Assembly: GCA_030431255.1 (NCBI GenBank)
Contig: JAUIJL010000002.1
Span: 62,001 to 126,000 of the forward strand
Reading direction: 5' to 3'
Source of the DNA: Thermoanaerobaculia bacterium
Lineage (GTDB): Bacteria > Acidobacteriota > Thermoanaerobaculia > Multivoradales > J023
DNA length: 64,000 nucleotides
The position numbers and the translations under genes were made by a program. Below, one piece after another: positions 1,245 through 59,602 of this stretch. The notes beneath the pieces were generated by a model that had not been told where the DNA came from, ran no database searches, and saw only the letters and a program-made list of their open reading frames with translations. Numbering within the stretch: the first letter of the stretch is position 1; each line of letters begins with the position of its first letter.

Positions 1245-2765
1245 ATGATTTTCACCAGTGTACTGCAATCCCCCCTGCTCATCTTGCTCCTAGCCCTGCC
1301 TTCGGCTGCCGAGCCCAGCGCCGGTCCAGCTCCAGGAGCCGGCGCCCCGAGCTTGCCGACTTCCAACCCACAGGTCCGTCAAGTTGAGAGCGATGCCGAA
1401 GAGCGCCCGGACGATCCCTATGTCGCCGTTCCGCGATCGAGCATGGAGGTCAGCTCCGGCCGGCGGATCGACTTTCGAGGACGGGTGAGCGTGCAAGTCA
1501 ATGTGGATGACATGGGCAACAACATCGTGGGTGACGCCGCAAACGAGCCGTCCATCGCGGTGGATCCCGCAAATCCCCTACGCATGACCGCGGGCTGGCG
1601 ACAATTCGACACCATCGCTAGTAATTTCCGTCAAGCCGGCTACGCCTACACCACCGACGGAGGTCAATCCTGGACCTTTCCCGGCGTCATCGAGCCCGGC
1701 GTCTTTCGCTCGGACCCGGTGCTCGACTTCGACGCGGACGGGCAGTTTTATTACAACAGCCTCACCGGTGACCTCAGCTGCGACGTCTTTCGATCCGCGG
1801 ATGCGGGAACCAGCTGGGACTCCGGCGTCGACTCCTTCGGCGGCGACAAGCAGTGGATGAGCATCGACCGCACCTCGGGTATCGGCCGAGGCAATATCTA
1901 CCAAGTCTGGTACAACGGGGCCGGGTGCTGCTTCCCCAACAGCTTTACCCGCTCCTCCGACGGCGGAGCCTCCTTCGAGTCGCCGATTGAAATCGGCGAC
2001 GGCATTCGCCGAGGCACCACCTCGGTCGGACCCGACGGCGCGGTCTATGCGGTCGGACACCTGCCGAGCGATCTCTCGTCCTATGTGGTCGCCAAGTCCA
2101 CCACCCTCGCCGATCCCAAAGAGCCCGCCGCCTTCGACTCCGTCACGGCTGTGAATCTCGGCGGACCCATCGCCCGGGCCGTCGGGCCCAACCCCGCCGG
2201 CATGCTCGGGCAGATCTGGATCGTCGCCGACCCCGTAGACGCCGACCGCGTCTACATCCTGGCGTCCATCGACCCACCGGGCACGGACCCACTCGATATC
2301 CATTTCAGCCGCTCCACGGACGGCGGCGCCACCTGGAGCGCCCCGATCCGGGTCAACGACGACCCCACGGACAACGATGCTTGGCAATGGTTCGGCACCC
2401 TCTCCGTGGCCCCTGACGGTCGGCTCGACGCGGTCTGGAACGATACCCGCGACGACCCAAAAGGTTTCGATTCCGTCTTGTACTACGCCTCCTCCACCGA
2501 CGGAGGTCTGACCTGGTCGGCCGGTGAGCTCCTGACCCCGGCCTGGGATCCCCTGCTCGGCTTTCCCCAACAAAATAAAATCGGCGACTACTACGACATG
2601 GAGTCCCACAACGACGCCGCCCACTTGATCTACGCCGCCACCTTCAACGGCGAGCAAGACGTTTACTACCTGCGCATCGATCAAGGCGGTCTTTTCGCGG
2701 ATGGGTTTGAGGCCGGCGATACCTCGGCTTGGTCGTCCCGAACCGGCATGGCGCTTCCGAGGTGA
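1245..2765 (+). CDS. Secreted BNR/sialidase-like beta-propeller protein with DGFEAGD tail
   Basis: The 506-residue product starts with a signal-peptide-like segment (ILLLALPSAA). The body carries several Asp-box (BNR-type) signatures, for example YTTDGGQSWTF, SADAGTSW, SSDGGASF, STDGGATW and STDGGLTW, as found in sialidase-fold propellers. Asp boxes alone do not prove glycosidase activity and no sialidase catalytic Arg triad was verified, so the substrate is unknown. The last 20 residues hold a short tail (FADGFEAGDTSAW) that recurs in other exported proteins of this window and looks like an anchoring or sorting signal. The ATG at 1245 has no convincing ribosome-binding site; the neighbouring CTCCTCC is the complement of the divergent gene's Shine-Dalgarno. 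Start moderately certain. Confidence 0.8.
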   Translation: MIFTSVLQSPLLILLLALPSAAEPSAGPAPGAGAPSLPTSNPQVRQVESDAEERPDDPYVAVPRSSMEVSSGRRIDFRGRVSVQVNVDDMGNNIVGDAANEPSIAVDPANPLRMTAGWRQFDTIASNFRQAGYAYTTDGGQSWTFPGVIEPGVFRSDPVLDFDADGQFYYNSLTGDLSCDVFRSADAGTSWDSGVDSFGGDKQWMSIDRTSGIGRGNIYQVWYNGAGCCFPNSFTRSSDGGASFESPIEIGDGIRRGTTSVGPDGAVYAVGHLPSDLSSYVVAKSTTLADPKEPAAFDSVTAVNLGGPIARAVGPNPAGMLGQIWIVADPVDADRVYILASIDPPGTDPLDIHFSRSTDGGATWSAPIRVNDDPTDNDAWQWFGTLSVAPDGRLDAVWNDTRDDPKGFDSVLYYASSTDGGLTWSAGELLTPAWDPLLGFPQQNKIGDYYDMESHNDAAHLIYAATFNGEQDVYYLRIDQGGLFADGFEAGDTSAWSSRTGMALPR

Positions 2766-9126: not shown

Positions 9127-10464
9127 GTGATTTCTTCTAGAGTAGCCTCGATCTTCTGCACAGTCTTCATGACCATCGCCCTCGCTGCCCCGCTCAAGGC
9201 CGACGAGCCCTTCGTCGTGCCGTTCGGCGATCAATTCCCGATTCTCGAGGAGCACATGGATCGCAACCGCATTCAACCGGATGTGGGTGTGGATGCCCAG
9301 GGCCGTTTCGTGGTGGTTTGGTCGACCCGATCCGACGAAGACGGCGATGCCGGCTACGGCATCCGCGGTAAGACATTCGATCAAAACGGCGTGGCCGTCG
9401 GCACCGAATTCATGGTGAATACCTACACCACCGGCGACCAGCTCATACCGCGGGTGGCCATGGGCGCCGACGGCGGATTCAGCGTGGCTTGGATGAGCGA
9501 GGGATCCGCGGGTACCGACAGCTCTGAAACCAGCATCCAAGCACGCCCTTTCAACGCCGCAGGCGTGCCCAAGGGCCCTCCGATGCAAGTCAACACCTTC
9601 ACCTCCGGCCGCCAAGAAAGCCCGGCCATCGCCGCCGATGACCAAGGCAATTTCGTGGTCACTTGGGCCAACCACTTCAACGCCCCCGACGAAAAAGACG
9701 ACAATCGCACCGTCCAGGCCCGCCGATTCGGCTCCGACGGCACCCCCATCGGCGACGCCTTCAGGGTCGGCCCACCCGAATTGGATCACGACCTCACACC
9801 GGCCATCTCCATGACCGCCGATGGATCCTTCGTCGTGGCCTGGTCGTCGGTCGGCACCAACGGCTCTTTGGAAGTCTACGGCCGACGATTTCACGCCAAC
9901 GCCGACCCCGCGGGAGCGACCTTTCTGGTCAACTCCGAAACCTCCATGAACCAGAGCTATCCAGACGTGTCTCACCTCTCCGACGGGAGCTTTACGGTGG
10001 TCTGGAGAAACGAAGGCTCCGACGCCGATCCATTCGAGGAGAGCATCGAAGGCCGACGTTTCGCTTCCGACGGCACCCCCGTCTCCAGCCAATTCCAAAT
10101 CGACACCAACCCGTCCTCGGAGGCCTTCAGCCCTCAAATCGCCACCGACTCCGACGGATTCCTGGTGGCCTGGGGCGAGGGGTCCTTCAGCCCCTTCAAC
10201 ATCTTCGCGAGATCCTTTGAGCCCACCGGCCAGCCCTCCGGCGATGTGTTCGACCTACCGACCTACACGGTGCAAAGCCAGCGCGGCCAACGGCTGGGCA
10301 TCAACGCCGATCGGCAGCTGGTCGGTGTTTGGACCACCCAAACCGCCCCGGGGCAAATGGTGTCCTCCAGCATCCAAGCCCGAATCTTCCGCCACCCCGT
10401 GATCTTCACCGACGGCTTCGAAAGCGGCGATGCCTCGGCCTGGATGGTCGTGCCGGCTCCCTGA
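9127..10464 (+). CDS. Secreted repeat protein with DGFESGD tail, unknown function
   Basis: The 445-residue product starts at a GTG with AAAGG about nine bases upstream; the N-terminus is a signal peptide (CTVFMTIALAAPLKA). The body consists of about six or seven repeats of roughly 55 residues. Each has a strand such as GRFVVVWSTRS, GGFSVAWMSEG, GNFVVTWAN, GSFVVAWSS or GSFTVVWRNEG, followed by a second strand of the type RRFGSDGTPIGDAF. This looks like a beta-propeller or beta-helix. It ends in the tail IFTDGFESGDASAW. Function unknown; the export signal, repeats and tail suggest a surface or extracellular protein. Confidence 0.8.
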   Translation: MISSRVASIFCTVFMTIALAAPLKADEPFVVPFGDQFPILEEHMDRNRIQPDVGVDAQGRFVVVWSTRSDEDGDAGYGIRGKTFDQNGVAVGTEFMVNTYTTGDQLIPRVAMGADGGFSVAWMSEGSAGTDSSETSIQARPFNAAGVPKGPPMQVNTFTSGRQESPAIAADDQGNFVVTWANHFNAPDEKDDNRTVQARRFGSDGTPIGDAFRVGPPELDHDLTPAISMTADGSFVVAWSSVGTNGSLEVYGRRFHANADPAGATFLVNSETSMNQSYPDVSHLSDGSFTVVWRNEGSDADPFEESIEGRRFASDGTPVSSQFQIDTNPSSEAFSPQIATDSDGFLVAWGEGSFSPFNIFARSFEPTGQPSGDVFDLPTYTVQSQRGQRLGINADRQLVGVWTTQTAPGQMVSSSIQARIFRHPVIFTDGFESGDASAWMVVPAP

Positions 10465-20181: not shown

Positions 20182-21348
20182 CTATGGCCTGCTTCGAGCC
20201 TCGGATCGCGGAGGGGCGGTGCTCAAGAGCTCGGCCGCGGCGGCGATTCGACGAGCAGCGCACGTCATATTGTCCGCTCCCGCGGGGCACCATTTCCTGA
20301 ACGTGTGGAGGGAGCTTTGCTCGCAATCGCCGAGATTGTCGAGCACCCGGTAGGCGCTGCCCGGTTGGTAGATCTCCGCCACCAGGGCGTCGATGGCCAG
20401 TCGAGCGGCGTTGGCCATGCAGAGGTCCGACGAGAGATCCGGCAAGGTGGGCGAAGGCTCTCCGGGATGGCTCTCGTAGTGACAATATTGATGGTCGATG
20501 CCCTCCACGCCCAAGGTGCCGAGCAAATCGCCCACTTGGCGACCGAGAATCCAGGCGGCGTGCTCGCCGCCGTCGAAGGGCAAAGTCAAAGCCTGAGCCG
20601 AAAGCTCCGGGTCGATCTCACCACCTCCGGCTTCCGCCGGTTGGAGCAAAGCCTCGGCCCACATCTGCACGCCCCTGGCCACCAACCCTTTGTCTTCCAG
20701 TCCCAAGGTGGAGCCGAGGGACGACTGGGTGCAGATGCCGTCGCAAATCCCGGAGGTCCAATCAACCCCTGGAAAATCCACGTCGCAACCGGCGCCGGGC
20801 ACGCCGTTGGGTTTGTTCTCCCGCCACAAACAATTGTTTTCCTCGGTCAGGATGCCCCAATTGCAAAACTCTCCCGCGCCGGCGCAATCACCGGAAAAAT
20901 AGCAATGGCAATTGGGAAGCTGCGAGCTTTGAGCACTCCAAGCCGTGGCGTCACCGGTTTCCATGTCGTCGCCGAAAATACCCTCGACAATAATCGTGTG
21001 GGTCGGTCCCTGGCCGAAATGAACACTGCAGGTATAGTCCCAAGTACCCCCCTCGTGAAAAGTGAAGGAGTATTGCCACGGGTCCGACGACGGGACGCCG
21101 CTATCGAAGGTACCGTCGATGGCGACCACACTGTGCGCGCCGCTATCGACATTGACCCAAGTGACCGTATCCCCCACTTGAATGGTCAGCTGAGCGGGAA
21201 CGAAGCCCACTTCGGTGGTTTCGACCATATGCTCCTCCCCATAAAGGGCGATAGCGACGAGCAAGCTCAAGATCGACGACAGGACGAGCCCACGCCGAGC
21301 TCGCAGCGCGGTGGACGGCAGAGACGCATTGGGGGCAGGAAGAAGCAT
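20182..21348 (-). CDS. Secreted cupredoxin-domain protein with Cys-rich region
   Basis: The 388-residue product has an N-terminal hydrophobic export segment (LVLSSILSLLVAIALYG) after a basic lead. Residues about 40-125 form a plastocyanin/azurin-like domain (FVPAQLTIQVGDTVTWVN, GAHSVVAI, YTCSVHFG), supplying the His, Cys and His copper ligands; the usual axial Met is not evident. A DGFESGD-like element (IFGDDMETGDATAW) follows internally rather than at the C-terminus, then a Cys-rich stretch (CHCYFSGDC, CNWG, CDVDFPG, CDGICTQ) and a helical C-terminal half with further Cys. Role may be copper binding or electron transfer outside the cell. The ATG at 21348 follows GAGGAG. It converges on the amine oxidase. 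Confidence 0.8.
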   Translation of the reverse strand: MLLPAPNASLPSTALRARRGLVLSSILSLLVAIALYGEEHMVETTEVGFVPAQLTIQVGDTVTWVNVDSGAHSVVAIDGTFDSGVPSSDPWQYSFTFHEGGTWDYTCSVHFGQGPTHTIIVEGIFGDDMETGDATAWSAQSSQLPNCHCYFSGDCAGAGEFCNWGILTEENNCLWRENKPNGVPGAGCDVDFPGVDWTSGICDGICTQSSLGSTLGLEDKGLVARGVQMWAEALLQPAEAGGGEIDPELSAQALTLPFDGGEHAAWILGRQVGDLLGTLGVEGIDHQYCHYESHPGEPSPTLPDLSSDLCMANAARLAIDALVAEIYQPGSAYRVLDNLGDCEQSSLHTFRKWCPAGADNMTCAARRIAAAAELLSTAPPRSEARSRP

Positions 21349-46363: not shown

Positions 46364-46568
46364 CCCCACGGTCCCTAGGCAGTCAATACAGACAGATCGT
46401 CGGCATCCGACCTGCGCCTTTCGGCACCGTTTGGCGCGTCCCCTGATATCGGCTCTCGAGCATAGACCTTCCGGAGGTCCTCGGCTGACCGGCTGAGGCG
46501 GATGGGGCTCTGGGTCCTTTGTAATGCCTTTGAATTTCATGATCCACTCTCCCGCACGTGAGGTAACC

Positions 46569-48971
46569 ATGCACCTGCACCCTGTGATCCCGAAAGTCCC
46601 CGTGAACCATTCCCATGTTTCGAGCCGGCTCTGTCGAGCCCTCGTGTCCATGTTGATCTTGTTGCCGGCCGCCGTTCCGACCATGGCTTGGCAGCCGACC
46701 ACCAACGGCCCGACCGCGGGCCTGCAAGAGGTTCGCTCCGCCGAGCTGGCCCCCGAGCCCGTCTTATTGCGGCCCGACGCGCTGCAATCCGACCAAAAAG
46801 CCGCCGCCTGGAATCGACTCGCCGCGCTCGGCTTGTCGAGTGACACCGGAGTCCTGGACGCCCGCAGCGGCAATTGGGCCTCCCTCTGGCTCAGTGAGCC
46901 GATCCTGCCCGGAGCCGGCAACTCTCTGACCTGGTCCGAGCTCTCCGCCCCGACCAAAGCCGCTCAAGGTGAGGCCGACGCCATCGCCGAGCTGGTTCAG
47001 AGCCGAGTGGCGGATTTCCTGGGATCCCATCGTGATGCCCTCGGCATCGACCCCGCCGAAATCGACTGGAGGATCGGCGTTCACGAGCAGGGACGGCTGG
47101 TGCAAATCCACGGCCGGCGGATGTTCAACGGGCTGGAGGTCCGTGACTCCTACCTCACCGCCTCGATCGTCGCCGGCAACCTCGTGCTGCTCGGCACCCA
47201 TCGCTGGGGTTTGATCGAGCTCGATCTGCAACCCAAAGTGACCGCCGACCAGGCTTGGAATCGTTCCAAAGCCGGTATCACCCGCGCCGAGACGCTCCAA
47301 GCCATGGATGAGGCACGGCTTGAGATCGTTCCCGTCGCCGCGGACGAGGGCTACGGTCACAAGCTGGTGTGGGTCACGCCCTTCAAGGCCCCCGGCACGG
47401 TTGAAAACTACCGCGCCACCGTCGACGCCCATTCCGGGGAGCTGATCGAGCTGATCGACACCAACCATTACGCCGATCATCCGGAGCACCGCGGAGCCGA
47501 GGCCCGCAACGTCAAAGGCGGGGTCTACCCCATCAGCAACGACGGCATGCTGCCCGACGGCGTGGAAATCGACGGTTGGCCCATGCCCTTTGCGGACGTC
47601 ACCCATACCGGGGGCACCGCGACCACCGATGCCGGCGGCAATGTGGAGGGGGTCACCGGCAACATGACCACCGCCCTTTCGGGTCCGTACATCAACATCA
47701 ACGAATCTTGCGGTGCGATCTCCGAAACGTCCGCCGCGGGCGACCTCGACCTGGGCACCAGCGGCGGCACCGATTGCACCACCCCGGCTGGAGGCTCGGC
47801 GGGCAATACCCACTCCGCCCGCACGGCGTTTTATGAGCTCAACCGCATGGCCGAGATGGGTCGTACCCGCCTGCCGGCCAACGTTTGGCTACAAGCCTCC
47901 ATGCCCGCCGGCCTGAACGACGACGCCTGGTGCAACGCGGTGTGGACCGGCGCCGGCGTGCAATTCTTCCAAACCGAAGCGCCTTGCTCCAACTTGGGCG
48001 AGCTCGCCGGCGTGCTCGACCACGAGTGGGGCCACGGCATGGACGACAACGGCACCAACGGCTCGGTGTCGAACCCCGGTGAGGGCATTGCCGACGTCTT
48101 CGCCGCCCTCCGTCTCGGCGATTCGTGCCCGGGTCGCGGAGCCCTGCCGTCGGTATGCAGCGGATTCGGCGATCCCTGTACCGCCGCCTTCGGCTGCACC
48201 GCGGCGCGGGATATCGACTGGGCGCGCCACGACTCCCAAGCACCCCACGACGTGGCCTGGGCCAACTCCAATTGCGGTGGCTCAGCCCACTGCCGAGGCG
48301 TGCTCTCGGCGGAGGCCATGTGGGACCTCTACAAGCGGGACCTGCCCGCCCGGCACGGCTTCGACGACAACACCTCGATGGAAATCGCCACCCGATTGGT
48401 CTTCCTCGGCGCCGACAACGTTGGGGATTGGAATGCCTTCAACAACGGCAACGAGGGTGGCTGCGCCGCCACCCACGGTTACCAGCAATTTCTAGTGGCC
48501 GACGACGACAACGGCAACCTGGCGGACGGCACGCCGCACATGCAAGCGATCTTCGACGCCTTCAACCGCCACGGCATTGCTTGCTCGACCCCGAGCGTGC
48601 AGGTCGCCGGTTGCGCGGGAGCGCCGTCTAGCGCGCCGACGGTCAACGCCTCGGCCGCGGATCGCGGCGCCAATTTGAGCTGGAACGCGGTGGCTGGAGC
48701 CACCCGCTACAAGATCTTCCGCACCGACGGTGTGCGCGGCTGCGGCCGCGGCAAGGCATTGGTGGGAGAGGTCACCGGCACGACCTTCGACGACACCGGT
48801 TTGCAAAACGGCCGTGAGTATTACTACGTGGTGGCCGGATTCACCGATTCGGACACCTGCATGGGACCCGCAAGCCCTTGCACCACCGTCACCGCTGGAC
48901 AAGGAAACGAGCTGTTCAGCGACGGCTTTGAGTCCGGAAATCTGACGGCATGGTCCAGCTCGTCCCCCTGA
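46569..48971 (+). CDS. Secreted zinc metalloprotease (M36/fungalysin-like) with Fn3-like domain and DGFESGN tail
   Basis: The 800-residue product starts at ATG 46569 after GTGAGG; a signal peptide (ALVSMLILLPAAVPTMA) follows a basic lead. A pro-region with an FTP/PepSY-like stretch (residues about 100-290) precedes the catalytic domain with HEWGH at 485-489 and the downstream Glu505 in GEGIADVFA, the gluzincin arrangement of M4/M36 peptidases. A fibronectin III-like module (ANLSWNAVAGATRYKIFRTDG, YYYVVAGFTDSD) precedes the C-terminal tail LFSDGFESGNLTAW. Many cysteines in the catalytic region suggest disulfides. Predicted role: extracellular protein degradation. Confidence 0.87.
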   Translation: MHLHPVIPKVPVNHSHVSSRLCRALVSMLILLPAAVPTMAWQPTTNGPTAGLQEVRSAELAPEPVLLRPDALQSDQKAAAWNRLAALGLSSDTGVLDARSGNWASLWLSEPILPGAGNSLTWSELSAPTKAAQGEADAIAELVQSRVADFLGSHRDALGIDPAEIDWRIGVHEQGRLVQIHGRRMFNGLEVRDSYLTASIVAGNLVLLGTHRWGLIELDLQPKVTADQAWNRSKAGITRAETLQAMDEARLEIVPVAADEGYGHKLVWVTPFKAPGTVENYRATVDAHSGELIELIDTNHYADHPEHRGAEARNVKGGVYPISNDGMLPDGVEIDGWPMPFADVTHTGGTATTDAGGNVEGVTGNMTTALSGPYININESCGAISETSAAGDLDLGTSGGTDCTTPAGGSAGNTHSARTAFYELNRMAEMGRTRLPANVWLQASMPAGLNDDAWCNAVWTGAGVQFFQTEAPCSNLGELAGVLDHEWGHGMDDNGTNGSVSNPGEGIADVFAALRLGDSCPGRGALPSVCSGFGDPCTAAFGCTAARDIDWARHDSQAPHDVAWANSNCGGSAHCRGVLSAEAMWDLYKRDLPARHGFDDNTSMEIATRLVFLGADNVGDWNAFNNGNEGGCAATHGYQQFLVADDDNGNLADGTPHMQAIFDAFNRHGIACSTPSVQVAGCAGAPSSAPTVNASAADRGANLSWNAVAGATRYKIFRTDGVRGCGRGKALVGEVTGTTFDDTGLQNGREYYYVVAGFTDSDTCMGPASPCTTVTAGQGNELFSDGFESGNLTAWSSSSP

Positions 48972-58984: not shown

Positions 58985-59602
58985 ATGGCATTCACCTCGA
59001 AATCGACACTCGAAAAGCACTCCAGCACATCTCCATGGCTTTGCATGGTGCTCGCCGCCTGCCTGACCTGCTCGCTTTCCGGTCTCGCCGCGGCCGACGA
59101 CCCCGACGCACCGCCGCCGGAGGCCCGCGGCGCCACCGACATCGCCTCCGGTCGCATACTCAGCTGGCCGGAATTCTCGTTGCTCTTCAGCTTCGACGAC
59201 CATGTGGACGTGGTCAGCGGCATCCAAAGCACGTGGTCCATCTCCAATACCAACGTGCCGACCGCCTTCTTCTACGCCGCCAATCATCCCGAAGCTGAGA
59301 TTGCCAACGCACCCGGATTGACCCACATTTCCGAAATGACCGACGCCTCCGCCCTCACCTACGAGATGGACTCGTCGTCGAGCGTCATCACCGTGGGAGA
59401 ATTCGTCTTCCTGCGCAACCCCACGACCGGCTTCTACGGCGCCCTTCGATTCGATCGGCTCCTGGAAACCCGCGGCCCGCAAAACGAAGCTGACGTCACT
59501 TGGTACCTACAACAGGACGGCTCCGCGGACTTCAGCTCATTCATCTTCTCCGACGGCTTCGAGTCCCAGGATCTCTCCTACTGGTCGTCCACGACTCCCT
59601 AG
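58985..59602 (+). CDS. Small secreted protein with DGFESQD tail, unknown function
   Basis: The 205-residue protein has a signal peptide (CMVLAACLTCSLSGLAAA), then a beta-rich domain of about 150 residues (ASGRILSWPEFSLLFSFDDHVDVVSGIQSTW, NVPTAFFYAANHPEAEI) of no known family, and the C-terminal tail IFSDGFESQDLSYW. The start is set by GGGAGATTCCA immediately upstream. It resembles an exported structural or binding protein; no catalytic motif is evident. Confidence 0.78.
   Translation: MAFTSKSTLEKHSSTSPWLCMVLAACLTCSLSGLAAADDPDAPPPEARGATDIASGRILSWPEFSLLFSFDDHVDVVSGIQSTWSISNTNVPTAFFYAANHPEAEIANAPGLTHISEMTDASALTYEMDSSSSVITVGEFVFLRNPTTGFYGALRFDRLLETRGPQNEADVTWYLQQDGSADFSSFIFSDGFESQDLSYWSSTTP

Follow-up and report, generated by a model that had tools for sequence, protein, structure and literature searches.

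Four exported proteins encoded in a 64,000-nucleotide stretch of an Acidobacteriota genome (the whole stretch analysed, hereafter the window) end in a short tail built around the residues FxDGFE. This tail is modular, terminal and conserved at the protein level, it sits on exported proteins, and it co-occurs with exosortase H (XrtH) in two phyla. It is likely a sorting-type signal, and our findings suggest a type of address label, previously undescribed, for the surface proteins of bacteria; a literature search with the motif strings, with most subscription papers outside its reach, found no paper. The best-supported mechanism, for which the evidence is correlational and to which we assign a probability of about one half, is that the tail would serve as a sorting tag at the C-terminus and be coupled to the XrtH system.

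An earlier note on this sequence had described four exported proteins ending in a common motif, together with a diverged internal copy at about 20930-20982. All four open reading frames (ORFs), which lie on the plus strand, end as described, and their starts are signal-peptide-like. The internal copy is present as FGDDMETGDATAW (minus strand, 20976-20938) in the ORF at 20182-21348, where it comes after the cupredoxin domain (Pfam Copper-bind, over cut-off). The tails indeed lie close to the C-terminus, but the range of 20-26 residues from the end given for them was slightly high, the measured values being 23, 19, 18 and 18. A search for related loci found no relatives of one window protein, P0004. 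The features of the window are as follows.

1245..2765, plus strand: exported protein of 506 aa, tail carrier; BNR-like repeats slightly below the Pfam cut-off
2694..2762, plus strand: C-terminal tail FADGFEAGDTSAWSSRTGMALPR; F to last residue, 23 residues
9127..10464, plus strand: exported protein of 445 aa, tail carrier
10405..10461, plus strand: C-terminal tail FTDGFESGDASAWMVVPAP; F to last residue, 19 residues
20182..21348, minus strand: exported cupredoxin-domain protein; diverged internal motif copy FGDDMETGDATAW at 20938-20976, then a Cys-rich region
46524..48971, plus strand: P0003, exported putative metallopeptidase of 815 aa with HEWGH motif, tail carrier
48915..48968, plus strand: C-terminal tail FSDGFESGNLTAWSSSSP, unstructured in the P0003 model; F to last residue, 18 residues
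58985..59602, plus strand: exported protein of 205 aa, tail carrier, without family match
59546..59599, plus strand: C-terminal tail FSDGFESQDLSYWSSTTP; F to last residue, 18 residues

The genome to which the window belongs (Acidobacteriota, 10.19 Mb, 98.8% complete) contains 179 matches to the DNA pattern coding for F-x-[DN]-G-F-E and only 3 to the reversed pattern, which rules out a chance origin of the sites. The 103 distinct sites that we read come from 30 short loci and 53 fetched stretches as well as from the window; about 75 of those counted were left unread. Eighty-three of the 103 have a stop codon no more than 35 residues away, and in 45 of these the distance from F to the end is exactly 18 residues. 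The remaining 20 are not near a stop; some are internal and some apparently fall in a non-coding frame. Tail length is mostly 13-26 residues in this genome and mostly 6 to 26 overall.

Seventy-eight terminal tails have W at position 12, and their consensus is [ILV]-F-x-D-G-F-E-S-G-D-[TLV]-S-A-W-S-S-x-x-P. The search and the filter demanded F, [DN], G, F, E and W, which are therefore invariant here, whereas position -1 (I, L or V), S-G-D and the P at +17 are conserved although neither of the two demanded them. Columns -12 to -2, 11 in all, each hold 0.2-0.4 bits of information; the value rises to 2.7 bits at -1 and reaches 5.8 bits inside the motif. Codon choice in the motif resembles that of the protein bodies, and the contexts differ in all 78 tails. 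Evidently, it is the protein that is conserved; these two observations rule out an element acting at the DNA level, such as a recent mobile one.

The earlier note had seen the tail on four unrelated exported proteins, and the larger set of carriers bears this out. Over 48 carriers of the window's genome we counted 80 Pfam families, none of them in more than three carriers (25 of the 80 families listed). The folds include beta-propellers, FG-GAP, beta-helix, M36 peptidase and GH85 by Pfam, and NCBIfam adds arylsulfatase and more. Signal peptides were scored by a crude home-made rule, and several of the carriers it missed are cut at a locus edge; by this rule, a signal-peptide-like start is found in 42 of the 48 carriers versus 94 of 224 ORFs from these loci; for loci of other genomes the figures are 54 of 73 carriers versus 138 of 400 ORFs. 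A lipobox is present in one of the 48.

The tail itself is matched by no NCBIfam 20.0 or Pfam model in the scans made. Its carriers, in turn, are matched by M36 models named for other anchors (myxosortase-dependent in 4 of 48, rhombosortase-dependent in 3 of 48 and T9SS-dependent in 2 of 48) and also by the NCBIfam models for choice-of-anchor Q, I and J. Some of the anchor-named M36 matches are perhaps partial, since a scan of carriers from the gammaproteobacterial order described below showed such matches to short stretches, and therefore not all carriers hit by M36 models are whole M36 proteins. The matches to anchor-named models suggest that bodies which bear other C-terminal anchors elsewhere use the FxDGFE tail here.

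Our argument for modularity is based on homologous bodies that occur both with and without the tail. Homologues of P0003 were gathered across the window's order, and 53 complete C-termini were read, 39 from tail-rich genomes (15 or more sites, a cut-off chosen after the counts were seen) and 14 from tail-poor ones. In tail-rich genomes 26 of the 39 are tailed, of which 21 have the strict form and the other 5 variants such as GDFETGD, and 13 end otherwise. In tail-poor genomes none of the 14 is tailed, one of them (L278) having a stop flagged inside the match (p = 1.2e-5; 2.6e-4 for the strict form only).

P0003 has no Pfam or NCBIfam match; its model is weakly thermolysin-like (M4 peptidase type), with an FN3-like domain at the end. 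Assignment of P0003 to M36 is ruled out, there being no family match and its HEWGH family being distinct from the M36-like HEYGHGIS motif, which is found in two other carriers. Residues 791-815 of the model have a mean pLDDT of 51-57 and no secondary structure, as against 80-94 for residues 701-790; as modelled, the tail is outside the P0003 fold. The proposal of the earlier note that a short tail behaves like a sorting signal thus holds in so far as the tail is modular, terminal, carried by exported proteins, present or absent on homologous bodies and, in one model, outside the fold.

Next, we examined the distribution of the tail. In an even draw of 297 genomes from the phylum, high site counts occurred in the window's order; elsewhere the maximum was 20, with 16 for the reversed pattern. 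Counts range from 0 to 179 over all 72 genomes of the window's order. One genus, g4 (21 genomes), has 0-3 sites, and three other genera of its family have 65-114. When named contigs were scanned, most of the matches listed came from MAGs with the titles Acidobacteria, Acidobacteriota, Thermoanaerobaculia, Thermoanaerobaculales or Holophagae; among the sites listed (at least 109), 96 are no more than 50 residues from the stop, 50 of the sites lying at 18 residues and 11 at 13.

The gammaproteobacterium OFTM154 was also among the named-contig matches listed. Of 200 genomes drawn from its order, which we take to be Xanthomonadales (hereafter the gamma order), the site count is 0-7 in 118 and 15-113 in 75. 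Twenty-nine of the 32 sites read there are terminal. The tail is shorter in this order, [IL]Fx[DN]GFE-stop, and 14 sites end exactly at GFE-stop; the common core is therefore [ILV]Fx[DN]GFE, SGDxxAW being an extension of one lineage. DGFESGD, which the earlier note took for the common motif, accordingly proved to be a real tail that is shared only in this core.

Four families were tried against tail counts (secretin, rhombosortase, exosortase and XrtH), and all co-occurrence tests count genomes or genera without regard to phylogeny. A strong case of co-occurrence concerns XrtH (TIGR04177), which is over cut-off in 131 of the 200 gamma-order genomes, namely in 71 of 75 tail-rich genomes versus 60 of 125 others (p = 8e-13, kinship ignored). 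The median number of sites is 18 in the 131 XrtH-positive genomes versus 1 in the 69 XrtH-negative ones, and among genomes below 15 sites the mean is 3.9 in the 60 with XrtH versus 1.3 in the 65 without it. The association has the same direction in all four genome-size bins. The four tail-rich genomes in which XrtH was not detected are G417, G431, G510 and G540, G510 having a weak match in a 46-residue frame (an XrtH fragment); conversely, 60 low-count genomes carry XrtH.

In the window's order, exosortase PF09721 was detected in 26 of 33 tail-rich genomes versus 7 of 39 others (kinship ignored). At the genus level, 16 genera have both tail and enzyme, 2 the tail only, 4 the enzyme only and 6 neither (p = 0.011). 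No exosortase was detected by PF09721 in 7 of the 33 tail-rich genomes, and the exosortase-positive genomes with few tails are G246, G312, G322 and G349-G352. PF09721 is a poor detector, finding 76 of the 200 gamma-order genomes versus 131 over cut-off with TIGR04177 (36 of 75 tail-rich versus 36 of 118 with 0-7 sites, p = 0.02). Since it misses many, exosortase absences in the window's order are uncertain. All 7 exosortases typed in this order are XrtH over cut-off, including those of G246, G350 and the window's genome, the last being located as follows.

L333:6056-6628: exosortase of the window's genome, XrtH over cut-off

Cys, Arg and His, which have catalytic roles in exosortases, are invariant in 21 XrtH sequences. 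A membrane sorting enzyme that tracks the tail, of the kind for which the earlier note had proposed to look, was thus found in both orders. Among the loci listed, no XrtH neighbour common to both phyla was seen by eye; in the gamma order XrtH lies near shikimate-pathway genes, in the window's order near smc.

If the tail and XrtH belong together, XrtH-positive genomes with few FxDGFE sites might use variants of the tail. In 400 kb sampled from one such genome (G476, 3 sites), the endings FxDRF[EK] or FxDDFE occur on 5 of 332 ORFs; the expression for them was set after this genome had been seen. In G391, a gamma-order genome without XrtH, 0 of 414 ORFs carry a variant tail. In G350 (XrtH-positive, family f85 of the window's order) 0 of 240 ORFs are tailed, and this counts against the rule.

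Endings of the transmembrane (TM) type were found as well. A choice-of-anchor Q/D protein of G476 ends, without tail, in a TM helix followed by RRRR, and 2.97 Mb of sequence from the window's order contained two IPTL-CTERM-like TM endings (18.7 and 16.7 bits, cut-off 20.5), belonging to the following genes.

L138:5525-6550, minus strand: gene with an IPTL-like TM ending
L166:1-1293, plus strand: gene with an IPTL-like TM ending

One of the two adjoins a tail carrier and the other a P0003 homologue with a cut-off C-terminus. TM-type endings therefore coexist with the tail both in G476 and in the window's order. The L166 protein has the look of a multihaem cytochrome and gives a weak match to the NCBIfam model 'midcut-by-XrtH'.

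Taking the tail as a tag coupled to XrtH, we propose the following course of events. Carriers would be exported by their N-terminal signal peptide, as judged from sequence, and would then fold, keeping a short unstructured C-terminal tail with the core [ILV]-F-x-[DN]-G-F-E. A component of the XrtH system, presumably XrtH itself or an XrtH-dependent receptor, would read the tag in the periplasm or at the outer membrane, and the system would bring the carriers to the cell surface, their presumed destination, or release them to the outside.

Several known systems offer themselves for comparison. XrtH pairs with IPTL-CTERM (TIGR04174), likewise a C-terminal tag on exported proteins; XrtH (TIGR04177) occurs in the same genomes as our tail, and choice-of-anchor Q proteins bear either the FxDGFE tail or an IPTL-like TM ending. 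Unlike IPTL-CTERM, the tail has no IPTLxxWG-type motif (78-tail consensus), and it lacks the TM helix and the basic C-terminus that known exosortase substrates have. A search of 5 window proteins and 10 gamma-order carriers with TIGR04174 gave no match up to an E-value of 10. GlyGly-CTERM resembles the tail in its many carriers per genome and in the rhombosortase-dependent M36 model that matches 3 of 48; the tail differs in having no GG motif or TM helix, and rhombosortase is present in just 7 of 33 tail-rich genomes. MYXO-CTERM is similarly a lineage-wide C-terminal tag, with its myxosortase-dependent M36 model matching 4 of 48, but our tail lacks the invariant Cys. The signature motif and the TM helix of PEP-CTERM, MYXO-CTERM and LPXTG are both missing, and the tails read are without the terminal hydrophobic helix, just as the earlier note had remarked in setting the motif apart from LPXTG and PEP-CTERM. 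The C-terminal domain of type IX secretion is also a TM-less signal, and the T9SS-dependent M36 model matches two carriers (best 3e-222). That domain, however, is folded and about 80 residues long, whereas the tail mostly has 6 to 26 residues and is unstructured in one model.

The XrtH reading may be carried further, to a TM-less class of exosortase-system tag. XrtH, or a receptor anchored by XrtH, would then recognise a soluble C-terminal peptide on exported proteins, one enzyme serving dozens to well over 100 carriers per genome in two phyla. We put this forward as a tentative and rather doubtful extension; if true, it would contradict the rule by which the substrate of an exosortase must span the membrane, and exosortase H would gain far more candidate clients than the few TM-type endings found here. 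The tag bears on the question of how soluble exported proteins of diderm bacteria reach the surface without a membrane anchor. Being short, it can be searched for in any genome (up to 179 sites per genome, most of those read being terminal), it has a candidate partner enzyme, and it could be transferred to a reporter.

A somewhat unlikely alternative is that the tail serves sorting or retention by a different machine (type II secretion, a type IV pilus-type secretin or a surface receptor), and that XrtH shares its distribution only because both occur in bacteria rich in surface proteins. Such a view accommodates the lack of a TM helix for an exosortase, the presence of TM-type, substrate-like endings beside the tail, and the state of family f85, where exosortase is present and tails are few or none. 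A PilQ-type secretin, moreover, tracks the tail in the window's order, being present in 31 of 33 tail-rich genomes versus 14 of 39 others; its locus was typed in one genome and elsewhere taken from a GspD-model E-value under 1e-50, G326 with its GspD-like match being counted as lacking it.

L276:4426-12838 (syntenic in L274, L275, L291 and L293): pilM-pilN-pilO-secretin (PilQ-type) locus, then an IPT/TIG-PKD protein

This locus seems absent from all 21 g4 genomes. Against a machine other than the XrtH system speak the strength of the XrtH association in a second phylum and its persistence across genome sizes. A second secretin locus is also matched in a tail-less g4 genome, so that a secretin as such does not discriminate. 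Secretin in general was rejected as a candidate, the GspD model matching 72 of 72 genomes of the window's order. Rhombosortase was likewise rejected as partner: it is over cut-off in 9 of these 72 genomes (7 of 33 tail-rich versus 2 of 39 others, p = 0.07), with no match in the window's genome. Clustering of the ORFs of 154 loci yielded no partner gene by neighbourhood, the commonest non-carrier neighbour cluster occurring in 11 of the 154 and having no TM segment.

A further reading would make the tail an orphaned first beta strand, taken from a ConA-like jelly roll. By strand complementation it would dock into a receptor jelly roll in which this strand is missing, and so form a non-covalent tether. 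Among the strict named-contig sites listed (at least 109), 13 are internal, and 8 of these lie in contigs titled Chloroflexi/Anaerolineae, archaea or Acidimicrobiia. At least four of the 8, together with one from a Thermoanaerobaculia contig, begin one homologous domain.

L150:460-1200, L076, L121, L124, L120: ConA-like jelly-roll domains starting with the same 13 residues (Thermoanaerobaculia contig, Chloroflexota, Bathyarchaeota contig)

In the model of this domain, residues 8-13 form the first strand of a ConA-like fold, the beginning of the motif falling in this strand. The tail thus resembles ConA/LamG-like jelly rolls in that the same residues begin a domain in Chloroflexota and others, and differs from a complete ConA-like beta-sandwich in that carriers stop after the first-strand region. 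These domains, however, were fetched with the motif itself, so its conservation there is built in and proves nothing by itself; residues 14-45 of the model have a pLDDT under 50, and the gamma-order tail stops at GFE. Judging from the model, the tail may descend from a ConA-like first strand; docking by strand complementation we consider improbable. Foldseek matched the jelly roll to, among others, receptor-binding domains of clostridial neurotoxins, a likeness of generic fold only.

That in every carrier the motif should form a structural cap or belong to a longer folded domain, the latter being the finding that by the earlier note would have spoken against a sorting signal, is most improbable: beta-rich proteins are frequent among carriers, but the tail is common to unrelated folds, the 11 columns before position -1 have almost no shared signal, and the tail of P0003 stands apart from the well-modelled domain before it in pLDDT and has no secondary structure.

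Two further observations concern unusual forms and settings of the motif. In the gamma order, tails also occur in tandem or altered form, for example FLDGFEGDVIFKNGYD and DLIWSDSFGL (L258, C-terminus; L322:2-577). In the window's own genome, proteins that by eye are RHS-repeat-like carry an internal motif bordering their C-terminal part (L206:2589 and 4969, L224:1685, L019, L223 and L220).
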